Source: Longimicrobium sp. (lineage in GTDB: Bacteria > Gemmatimonadota > Gemmatimonadetes > Longimicrobiales > Longimicrobiaceae). From it: DNA of 51,038 bases. The translations under genes and the position numbers were made by a program. Shown here in pieces: positions 9,385 to 11,239 of the stretch. The DNA is taken from contig NZ_DATIND010000145.1 of the NCBI RefSeq assembly GCF_035474595.1, positions 1-51,038 of the forward strand. The letters run 5' to 3'. The notes beneath the pieces are model-generated. The model saw only the letters and a program-made list of their open reading frames with translations. It made no database searches and was not told the origin of the DNA. Position 1 is the first letter of the stretch. Each line of letters starts with the position of its first letter.

Positions 9385-9500
9385 AAGTCCTAAGTCCCAA
9401 GTCCTGAGTCCCAAGTGAACTGCGAGCGTGTGCCACCTGGGACTCAGCACTCAGCACTCAGCACTCAGCACTTGGGACTCAGGACTCAGGACTCAGGACT
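9385..9500. repeat. Heptad-built long hairpin after a stop codon
   Basis: The ascending arm is AAGTCCT AAGTCCC AAGTCCT GAGTCCC AAGTG (9385-9417); the descending arm at 9439-9500 is made of GGGACTC, AGCACTC, AGCACTT and AGGACTC units. GAGTCCCAAGTG (9406-9417) and 9469-9480 pair perfectly over 12 bp and the stem extends outward with wobble. It starts 16 bp after the diguanylate cyclase stop and could act as its terminator. Confidence 0.75.
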
Positions 9501-9588: not shown

Positions 9589-9962
9589 GGGGATGACAGG
9601 TTTCGACGCGTACGGTGAAGCCGTGGCTGCGTGCCGAGGAGCTCGGGGCACTCGTTAAATCTCCGGGAAAATTGTACCTGCGAACGATAACTTCGCCCTG
9701 GCTGCGTAAGTAGACGCCCCTCACGGGGCTCCTTACCTCCCATCCGTCGGTCAGCCCCGCCTGAGGCGGGCCGCCGGGTGTCGATAAATTCTGGCTGGCC
9801 TGCGTTTGGCGCCGTGACGGCGCAGGCGAGATTTTCACGGCTGGTTCGCAAGGGGCCTTCAGCCGGCCGATGAGCGAGCGAGGAGAACAGAACGGTTGAA
9901 TACGCACGTAGACGCTGCGGGGGATCGGTAGGCGGACCCGGGTTCGAATCCCGGCATCTCCA
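9589..9962 (+). ncRNA. ssrA: Transfer-messenger RNA (tmRNA)
   Basis: One-piece tmRNA of about 374 nt. The 5' end GGGGATGACAGGTTTCGACG and the 3' end GGTTCGAATCCCGGCATCTCCA form the tRNA-Ala-like domain: GGGGATG pairs with CATCTCC in the acceptor stem, and GGTTCGAATC is the T-loop. The mRNA-like part begins at the resume codon GCG (9680) and encodes the degradation tag ANDNFALAA ending in TAA (9707-9709). The rest folds as pseudoknots. CCA is not encoded (the genome reads ACTC after the stem), so it must be added enzymatically. smpB is not in the window. tmRNA frees stalled ribosomes and tags the unfinished protein. Confidence 0.97.
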
Positions 9963-9970
9963 CTCATGAC

Positions 9971-10008
9971 GAAAGCCGGGCTCAGCTTCATTGCTGGGCC
10001 CGGCTTTC
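9971..10008 (+). terminator. tmRNA terminator
   Basis: A perfect 16-bp stem, GAAAGCCGGGCTCAGC (9971-9986) with 9993-10008, loop TTCATT. The following GTCGTTTCTG is only moderately T-rich. The gap to the next gene (10009-10221) holds a 10-bp repeat of the tmRNA 3' end (10026-10035) and the operator-like palindrome. Confidence 0.8.
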
Positions 10009-10183
10009 GTCGTTTCTGTCTTCCCGCATCTCCACGCGAACTCAGCCGCAGTAAACAACCCTCTTTCGCTCGCCGCTTCCACGGATTAAGTTCGCTCCGA
10101 GACATAACTAGACACGTTGGACAAATTGGAATTATTGGAATTACTGGTCAGGCGGCCGGCGCGGAAGGGTGGGCCTTGTGCTG

Positions 10184-10201
10184 GTACGTCTTTTGACGTA
10201 C
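10184..10201. promoter_or_regulatory. Candidate operator of the toxin-antitoxin pair
   Basis: The perfect palindrome GTACGTCTTTTGACGTAC (7-bp arms, TTTT centre) ends 20 bp before the first start codon. Its position and its AT-centred design resemble the palindromes bound by MqsA-type antitoxins. A possible -35 (TTGGAC, 10117-10122) lies upstream but no convincing -10 was found. Confidence 0.5.
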
Positions 10202-10221
10202 ATTGAAATCCGGGAGGCGGA

Positions 10222-10518
10222 ATGGGGTTTCGGGACGTGCGGAGCCTGCTGATCGACGCCCTGGAATCCGGGCGCTTTCAGCACGAATACCGGGCCGACA
10301 TGGAAAGCAAGAACCTGCTCGCCATTGGCGAGGTCACGCCCGAGTTCGTGGTGTCGCTGCTGCGGCGGTGCCCGGGGCAGGCGTACCGGTGCAGCCCGTA
10401 CCACTTCGACCATCGCATCCAGTGCCACCAGTTCACCCCCAGCCTGAACGGCGAGCGGTGGTACCTGAAGGCCTGCTTCCTTTCCGCCGACGCCGTGTTC
10501 ATCAGCGTGCACCAGTAG
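10222..10518 (+). CDS. MqsR-like toxin candidate
   Basis: 98 residues, the length of E. coli MqsR. Compared from memory with MqsR, residues 62-83 align without gaps and share Asp63, His64, Ile66, Pro73, Leu75 and Tyr81-Leu82-Lys83; Tyr81 falls at the number of a key MqsR residue. The C-terminus (DAVFISVHQ) fits the last beta-strand. MqsR is a RelE-fold, ribosome-independent mRNA interferase. The N-terminal half is more divergent (helical, then EVTPEFVVSLLRRC). A strong Shine-Dalgarno (GGGAGG) precedes the ATG. The toxin-first order with the zinc-finger gene 9 bp downstream is that of mqsRA. An unrelated small RelE-like protein remains possible. Confidence 0.6.
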   Translation: MGFRDVRSLLIDALESGRFQHEYRADMESKNLLAIGEVTPEFVVSLLRRCPGQAYRCSPYHFDHRIQCHQFTPSLNGERWYLKACFLSADAVFISVHQ

Positions 10519-10527
10519 GAGGGCTCC

Positions 10528-11160
10528 ATGCATCTGTACCGTGAGGGCGACGCGTCCGAGGCCATCTGCCACGCCTGCCAGCGGCGCGTGGCCACGCGCT
10601 TCGCCGTGCGCACGGTCACGCTCCCCGAAACGGGCATCGAGGTGCCCGACGTGCTGGCCGCGGTGTGCGACGAGTGTGGCCAGGTGGCCGCCATCCCGGC
10701 GCAGTCCGCGCCCAAGCTGAAGGAGGCGCGGGAGCGGCGGAAGGCGGAGGAGCTGGAGGCGCGCATCCCCTCGCACCTGGACGACGTGGTGCACCTGCTG
10801 TCGGACCACTTCGCGGCCGCGGTGGCCAGCTTCCGCCCCTCGCTGCTGCGCTTCTACCTGCGCGAGGTGGCCAGCGACCCGGAGCTGGCCGCGCGGGTGC
10901 GGTCGCTCTCGGCCAGCGACCTGGCGCAGGGGCGGGCGCGTGCCCGCGTGTCGCTGCGCGCGCCCGAGGGGCTGCTGCGCGACGTGCGTCAGGCCGCGCG
11001 CCTGGCGGGGATCGGCTCCGATGCCGACCTGATCCGCGGCATCCTGCTGGCGGCCAAGGAAGATGTGCTGGAGGGCGGCGCCCCCGAACGCCGCCTCCGT
11101 CTCGGTGGCGCCGCGCAGGCCGAGGGCGCGCCGCGGCCAGCGGAACTCGCGGTTCGGTAG
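10528..11160 (+). CDS. Zinc-finger (YgiT/MqsA-type) plus ribbon-helix-helix antitoxin candidate
   Basis: 210 residues. The N-terminal domain has Cys14/Cys17 and Cys47/Cys50 with an intervening beta-rich segment, the spacing of the MqsA/YgiT zinc domain that binds the toxin. Residues 60-130 are helical and charged. Residues 139-181 read as a ribbon-helix-helix: strand ARVSLRAP, helix GLLRDVRQAARLAG, turn IGSDAD, helix LIRGILLAAKEDV, much like the Arc repressor. MqsA normally ends in an XRE-type helix-turn-helix, so this swap is unusual. AGGAGGG overlaps the toxin stop and sits four bases before the ATG, predicting efficient coupled translation. It probably neutralizes the upstream protein and represses from the 10184 palindrome; this is inference. 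Confidence 0.6.
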   Translation: MHLYREGDASEAICHACQRRVATRFAVRTVTLPETGIEVPDVLAAVCDECGQVAAIPAQSAPKLKEARERRKAEELEARIPSHLDDVVHLLSDHFAAAVASFRPSLLRFYLREVASDPELAARVRSLSASDLAQGRARARVSLRAPEGLLRDVRQAARLAGIGSDADLIRGILLAAKEDVLEGGAPERRLRLGGAAQAEGAPRPAELAVR

Positions 11161-11177
11161 GTTTCCAGGAGATGAAG

Positions 11178-11212
11178 AGAGCCGGCCCGGGATCATCCCC
11201 CGGACCGGCTCT
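11178..11212. terminator. Bidirectional terminator between convergent genes
   Basis: AGAGCCGG (11178-11185) and CCGGG pair with CCCGG and CCGGCTCT (11205-11212), leaving one internal mismatch. It lies 18 bp after the antitoxin stop and 28 bp from the end of the minus-strand gene. Confidence 0.65.
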
Positions 11213-11239
11213 TCGCGTTCGGCGACGCGCCTCTCGGCC

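Follow-up and report, generated by a model that had tools for sequence, protein, structure and literature searches.

Within the window, by which we mean the whole 51,038-nucleotide stretch of DNA that was analysed, a gene for a 98-residue protein is followed, after 9 bp, by a gene for a 210-residue protein. Both open reading frames and the gap between them are as the first-pass annotation had described them (Table 1). The two-gene unit lies downstream of a tmRNA gene (9589-9963, Rfam RF00023) and of a terminator-like hairpin that follows the tmRNA gene (9967-10012). Ahead of the first gene is an inverted repeat that had been taken for a perfect 18-bp palindrome; it is instead GTACGTC-TTTT-GACGTAC, that is, two 7-bp arms around a 4-nt TTTT spacer. 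Read by eye, the repeat sits inside the 17-nt spacer of a promoter-like TTGTGC/TACATT pair, and TTG-containing stretches lie just ahead of the corresponding repeat in many homologues. A strict sigma-70 promoter scan found no promoter. The hairpin past the second gene is a possible transcript end (z of -1.55, with equally good folding in 15 of 200 shuffles) and was not called by the terminator scan. We read the locus, with a probability of roughly 0.86, as an autoregulated type II toxin-antitoxin operon in which an MqsR-fold toxin comes first, the antitoxin is a chimera of an MqsA-N-like front and ribbon-helix-helix (RHH) units, and the repeat is the operator. The computation supports this reading through the gene pairing, both predicted folds, the conservation of the operator and the one-sided decay of the toxin gene.

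Table 1. Parts of the two-gene unit, in positions of the window
Feature	Position	Strand	Basis
Putative promoter pair TTGTGC - 17 nt - TACATT	10176..10204	+	Read by eye
Putative operator, inverted repeat GTACG-N8-CGTAC (GTACGTC TTTT GACGTAC)	10184..10201	none	Conserved upstream
Ribosome-binding-like GGGAGG ahead of the toxin ATG	10212..10217	+	Read by eye
Putative toxin gene, 98 aa, MqsR-fold	10222..10518	+	AlphaFold2, fold match, family alignment
Putative antitoxin gene, 210 aa: MqsA-N-like zinc domain and tandem RHH	10528..11160	+	AlphaFold2, fold matches, pairing
Antitoxin residues 9-58, MqsA-N-like beta domain (C14, C17, C47, C50)	10552..10701	+	TIGR03831, MqsA structures
Antitoxin residues 73-116, predicted RHH unit 1 (strand 73-81, helices 82-94 and 99-116)	10744..10875	+	Model
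Antitoxin residues 137-181, predicted RHH unit 2 (strand 137-146, helices 147-160 and 165-181)	10936..11070	+	Model
Hairpin, possible transcript end, no T-run	11177..11213	+	9+5 bp stem, 16 nt past the antitoxin stop

The tmRNA gene ends in the 10 nt GCATCTCCAC (9954-9963), which recur 72 bp further on, at 10026-10035, just before the pair, and this repeat is possibly a scar of integration at ssrA. An island at ssrA that uses the 10-nt repeat as its attachment site was considered and rejected, as two more copies in the window lie in sequence whose likeness to the tmRNA end goes no further. A scan of 60 homologous loci together with their flanking sequence (up to 3 kb) found no tmRNA gene, which also counts against such an island. 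Short direct repeats (AAGTCCTGAGTCC-like, CACTCAGCACTCAGCACTCAG and GGACTCAGGACTCAGGACT) were seen by eye at 9385-9500, in the stretch that separates the tmRNA gene from the gene upstream of it.

The first protein and its predicted MqsR fold

A fold match to MqsR had been named beforehand as a test of the toxin assignment, and the AlphaFold2 model of the first protein (pLDDT 89.5, pTM 0.82) provides one. MqsR chain 3hi2_B is its only PDB match at E <0.001 (Foldseek E 7.6e-4), and in the VIA alignment the same chain reaches Z 8.0, at 3.4 A over 89 residues, the next row being at Z 5.2. Models that have no clear relatives often reach a best Z of 7 to 8, which puts 8.0 at the edge; the weight therefore goes to the gap between this match and the next row, to coverage of the full length and to the partner gene. 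Sequence identity by itself would not have proven the link to MqsR. The local alignment of the two sequences scores 33 (shuffle mean 22.5; 44 of 2000 shuffles as good), and across the 41 family members compared with the MqsR sequence the median z is 0.64, with four members above 3. Profile comparison was carried out with MqsR, DUF4258, BrnT and ParE sets drawn from the same phylum. MqsR came out on top at 19.9, its 40 column shuffles reaching at most 14.4, and its alignment with the toxin is collinear over 55 columns; the other sets align over 10-16. The ParE profile (16.0 over 16 columns) and the DUF4258 profile (15.8 over 10 columns) lie just above their own 40 shuffles, at 15.0 and 15.6, respectively. 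By hhalign the toxin and MqsR profiles match with a probability of 6.6% (P 0.0056), or 2.7% with a smaller set.

Pfam and NCBIfam contain no model that recognises the window protein. Across the 41 members, for which 17 families were listed, MqsR_toxin is matched by a single one (E 0.12), and PADLOC, PHROGs, Pfam and NCBIfam gave only weak, scattered matches. A PDB sequence search with the toxin and with its profile returned no result. When genome contigs were scanned with the toxin sequence alone, no match was confirmed; the scan was repeated with the alignment. In phage records, the eight matches found, at E 0.5, are to tape-measure genes; a further search of phage records matched none.

The first-pass annotation had pointed to Asp63-His64, Pro73 and Tyr81-Leu-Lys83 as lying in the same ungapped arrangement as in E. 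coli MqsR, and alignment with the 3hi2 sequence bears out the register. We examined conservation in 41 intact members from the window, named genomes and viral contigs (alignment A3, the window protein plus 40 of 43 toxins; L119, which is frameshifted, L080 and L090 were omitted). Tyr81 and Lys83 are present in all 41. Asp63-His64 was dropped as a family signature, since it is poorly conserved (Asp63 in 11 members and His64 in one); Pro73 is found in 14. Nine columns are invariant, namely Leu14, Gly17, Arg24, Trp80, Tyr81, Lys83, Phe86, Phe93 and Ser95. Histidines 21, 61, 69 and 97 are kept in 38-40 of the 41, and with column 60, where the window protein has Tyr, the histidine columns hold His in 37-40. 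Position 56 is Arg in the window protein and varies in the family (Ser in 10, Glu in 7, Arg in 6 and Thr in 6 of the 41). In MqsR, Lys56 and Tyr81 are described as essential, and the same source says that the enzyme has neither the histidine nor the glutamate with which related RNases carry out catalysis (PMC9636575). We infer that the conserved histidines of the present family are catalytic, with Tyr81, Lys83 and histidines 61, 69 and 97 as the likely active-site set. By its model the protein belongs to the MqsR branch within the RelE-type RNases, and its most likely activity is the cleavage of mRNA.

A probable antitoxin with a zinc-type front and two predicted RHH units

The AlphaFold2 model of the second protein (pLDDT 94.5, pTM 0.75) runs from a beta domain at residues 9-58 through a helix and two strand-helix-helix units to a last helix. 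C14, C17, C47 and C50 are its only cysteines and make up the two CxxC pairs that had been noted, 30 residues apart (C17 to C47). The front of the protein scores 16.8 bits with TIGR03831 (cut-off 20.2) and 14.7 bits with TIGR03830 (cut-off 61.8), the latter match covering only residues 14-72. In the structural comparison, residues 12-73 match MqsA-N (3gn5, 3ga8 and 3hi2, Z 5.3-5.5) and residues 73-194 match TraY, chain 9f10_E of the F relaxosome, with a Z of 8.4 across 102 residues; helical arrangements of a common kind can give scores as high. Residues 74-185 match VirC2 (Z 5.1), which we take to be a single-chain RHH protein. Foldseek returned no match for the antitoxin at E <0.001, its first three rows being MqsA, so the statement on the fold rests on the model and the second-look alignment.

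A single C-terminal RHH had been placed at residues 139-181. An RHH is indeed predicted there, at 137-181, and it is the second of two, the other lying at 73-116. The two units resemble each other (hhalign P 8.6e-4; control comparison 0.26). Direct sequence matches to RHH families are weak. The window protein matches CopG_antitoxin at 137-163 (E 0.27), and its profile matches the DUF1778 protein 7zg5_C at positions 139-189 (E 0.3). Among the 49 antitoxin members, CopG_antitoxin is weakly matched by three (best E 0.0011), MqsA_antitoxin weakly by three (best E 0.0042) and RHH_1 by two (best E 0.038). The PDB sequence search with the antitoxin and with its profile gave nothing significant. The alignment of the family (A4) comprises the window protein and 48 of 54 antitoxins; L080, L086, L090, L102, L124 and the second copy in L081 were omitted. 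The earlier proposal of a toxin-antitoxin module in which the DNA-binding half of the antitoxin has been exchanged is supported by the RHH units of the model.

F TraY is a monomer that holds the whole RHH dimer fold (PMC12117103), and DndE is built in the same way (PMC10853773). The tandem of the present antitoxin is predicted to form a single-chain RHH of this kind, its two units pairing within one chain, so that the RHH dimer expected by the first-pass annotation would probably lie within one polypeptide. The same operon could also work with a tandem that does not close on itself, two antitoxin chains swapping units or forming a four-unit assembly on the operator. RHH antitoxins normally act as dimers of chains (PMC4803016), and the presence of two half-sites in the repeat makes it probable that two or more antitoxin chains occupy it, both of which favour a multi-chain arrangement. 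Against it stand the match of the single-chain model to a monomer with the complete dimer fold, and a mean pLDDT of 94-98 in ten-residue blocks through both units, apart from the edges. We consider the multi-chain arrangement rather unlikely. With pairing inside one chain, each antitoxin molecule would already be a DNA-binding unit, and the usual conditional cooperativity by bridging of dimers would have to differ. Such an antitoxin would let operon repression be studied without dimerisation of chains.

The front domain is most likely the part that neutralises the toxin. Its cysteines are variable. Within the first 70 residues, exactly two CxxC motifs are present in 36 of the 49 antitoxins, none in 10, one in two and three in one. 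The ten members without CxxC come from Gemmatimonadetes/Gemmatimonadota loci (nine) and from Candidatus Palauibacter, a genus of the same phylum. In contrast, the four cysteines of MqsA are reported to be perfectly conserved (PMC2791442). The loss in 10 of 49 suggests that the beta fold may do without zinc, and in the Gemmatimonadota group it may work in this way. These members would offer a direct test of whether zinc matters in MqsA-type neutralisation. The fullest form of the proposal combines a single-chain RHH pseudo-dimer as antitoxin, an MqsA-type domain that is zinc-free in one lineage, and an MqsR-fold RNase in which histidines replace the chemistry of Lys56; for this combination we would give even odds.

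Small open reading frames (77-93 codons) that correspond to the antitoxin front only were seen in four loci (L054, 1489-1719; L055, 1459-1707; L056, 1507-1743; L057, 1282-1560), and an open reading frame of the toxin family was not found in these four.

Gene pairing, toxin decay and the upstream repeat

The gene pair is real and widespread. Conserved pairing in other genomes had also been named beforehand as a test, and in the 59 loci fetched with the toxin profile the antitoxin adjoins the toxin in every one, with the toxin gene preceding the antitoxin gene as in the window. These loci come from Gemmatimonadota, from Alpha-, Beta- and Gammaproteobacteria, and from four viral contigs; the proteobacterial hosts include Rhizobium, Mesorhizobium, Roseicyclus, Acetobacter, Limnohabitans, Pseudomonas, Marinomonas, Oceanospirillum and Winslowiella. 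Two further viral loci, found from the antitoxin side, hold both genes. Plasmids of Rhizobium and Acetobacter also carry the pair, and where the genes are annotated they are called hypothetical. Of the 298 genomes that sample the phylum, 19 show the toxin and 42 show either the antitoxin or just its front domain. One locus (L081) has a second antitoxin copy (29-622) about 2.4 kb upstream of a complete pair, the fetched stretch starting just before it.

The two genes do not decay alike. Among 63 loci (the 59 above and four plasmid loci, the second antitoxin of L081 being omitted), the toxin is broken beside an intact antitoxin in 15, and the reverse is found in none (sign test 6e-5). Both genes are intact in 43 and broken in two; the remaining loci are contig-edge cases, two with a broken toxin and the antitoxin at the edge and one with the toxin at the edge. 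The breaks are stops, frameshifts, missing fronts and missing starts. Two of the 15 (L087 and L113) are without a start codon in the expected place only, and leaving them aside gives 13 to 0. On reading, L119, scored as intact, proved to be frameshifted, and the end of L116 is altered. Many of the loci come from metagenome assemblies, where an indel may be an error; here the antitoxin acts as the control. Taken from the antitoxin side, 26 loci of the phylum include 25 with usable upstream sequence, and in these the toxin is intact in 10 (among them L050, scored as a fragment and full-length by reading) and broken or undetected in 15; in one of the 26, L053, the antitoxin itself is broken. With an intact toxin the operator lies 339-348 bp before the antitoxin, or 404 bp in L050. 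In six loci with a broken or undetected toxin the distance is 58-194 bp, indicating loss of part or all of the toxin gene with retention of operator and antitoxin. Because the loci have a common ancestry and the two decay sets partly overlap, neither the counts of decay nor those of the operator below are counts of independent events.

One-sided decay is what a harmful first gene and a protective, self-regulated second gene would predict; a merely dispensable first gene also fits. It could be that the RelE-fold protein encoded by the first gene has lost its toxicity or never had any, acting for instance as a co-repressor that tunes the second protein. The survival of antitoxin copies without a detectable toxin would suit this, as would the absence of the Lys56 that is essential in MqsR (PMC9636575). 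The nine invariant columns, Arg24, Trp80, Tyr81 and Lys83 among them, and the conserved His columns look enzyme-like, however, and the 15-to-0 loss, open to dispensability as it is, fits a harmful product. We regard a non-toxic first gene as improbable.

That the repeat controls the pair, as the first-pass annotation had suggested, is supported by the conservation of the site, which is the strongest finding on the pair. Of 55 distinct upstream regions, 53 have TAC-N10-GTA no more than 60 bp from the toxin start, where 0.69 is expected and no more than 4 were reached in any of 200 simulations. The longer TACG-N8-CGTA occurs in 42 of 55 (expected 0.09) and the full form of the window, GTACG-N8-CGTAC, in 14 of 55 (expected 0.01). 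For these counts the toxin starts were placed by profile and the motif forms were picked after the repeats had first been inspected; 57 of 67 loci were usable, 55 of them distinct, the other 10 having no toxin start in view or being too short. In the window and four relatives, the block of the repeat is the main invariant upstream stretch. One Gemmatimonadota group has GTACT-N8-AGTAC instead, and an outlying member (L110) has a different repeat. Two Marinomonas loci carry two such repeats, and in L077 and L079 a tandem of two operator-like repeats takes the place of the single one upstream of the toxin. In the whole genome GTACG-N8-CGTAC has three sites, the same number as a control pattern, so the letters alone do not define an operator; a regulon read from them was accordingly rejected.

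The site in the promoter region of the pair also bears on whether the two genes serve as accessory factors of a relaxosome or of partition. The top fold matches of antitoxin residues 73-195 are TraY and VirC2, and some copies are plasmid-borne, which would favour such a role. The conserved site before the pair's own genes, the predicted MqsR fold of the partner and the annotated neighbours inspected, among which no transfer gene is named, all argue against it, and we hold it to be very improbable. For the toxin-antitoxin operon, the GTAC half-sites, each itself palindromic, would suit binding by a two-fold or pseudo-two-fold RHH unit. We infer that the antitoxin probably binds GTACG-N8-CGTAC in the promoter with one pseudo-dimer per GTAC half-site, and that in this position it probably represses the operon. 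The conserved putative operator would provide a handle with which to find and test members of the family.

Relation to known systems

The closest comparison is with MqsR/MqsA of E. coli (PF15723/PF15731, TIGR03830). The two systems share the toxin-first order, the MqsR fold (here predicted), Tyr81, a palindromic site in the promoter region and a zinc-type domain at the front of the antitoxin, with CxxC-x29-CxxC here and CxxC-x30-CxxC in MqsA (PMC2791442). Unlike MqsR, the window toxin has no match to MqsR_toxin PF15723, and Lys56 is not kept, histidines being conserved here instead. MqsA has an XRE helix-turn-helix, whereas the window antitoxin has a predicted RHH tandem, and the repeat of the present pair, GTACG-N8-CGTAC, differs from the AACCT-N3-AGGTT of MqsRA (PMC4894380). 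Since order, fold, Tyr81 and zinc domain agree, and family model, Lys56 and helix-turn-helix do not, the pair is most likely MqsRA-like and outside the defined MqsRA family.

That the MqsA zinc domain can be reused is already known from MqsR:PanA of Bacillus fungorum, where it is sufficient for neutralisation (PMC10440598). That antitoxin keeps the helix-turn-helix and adds a Panacea domain, and no RHH is mentioned for it (PMC10440598). In the literature searched, mostly outside subscription papers, we found no description of an antitoxin with an MqsA domain and RHH, and the joining of the two, as it appears in sequence and model, seems to be new. If the reading is right, the neutralising domain of MqsA can be moved between architectures and has here been combined with a DNA-binding module of an entirely different kind, and the toxins add an RNase-fold family unnamed in Pfam and NCBIfam, found in Gemmatimonadota, Proteobacteria and viral contigs.

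The antitoxin would share with F TraY, DndE (PMC10853773 for DndE) and probably VirC2 the arrangement of two RHH units and a C-terminal helix in a single chain; these, in contrast, are proteins of conjugation or DNA modification without a toxin-binding domain. RelBE and like systems also place a RelE-fold toxin under an RHH antitoxin, but RelB has one N-terminal RHH, its C-terminal segment wraps the toxin (PMC11980606), and it has no MqsA domain. As to a DUF4258 toxin with an MqsA-like antitoxin, PF14076 matched neither the window toxin nor, among the families listed for them, the 41 members.

In the same genome, a standard MqsR (PF15723) is encoded at another locus (L062, G000:C142:21733-22023) and is followed by a CxxC/helix-turn-helix MqsA-like gene. 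Across the whole genome (G000), other matches to RelE-fold toxins at E <= 0.001 are four BrnT, four ParE and one DUF4258. Beside an MqsR-family toxin in a further locus (L070, 1806-2564), an antitoxin was seen by eye to have an apparent CxxC front, a helix-turn-helix and an RHH-like stretch (PSLRLPRSLSEQLAQRADDEGVDVNTLAVMIL), possibly an intermediate architecture.
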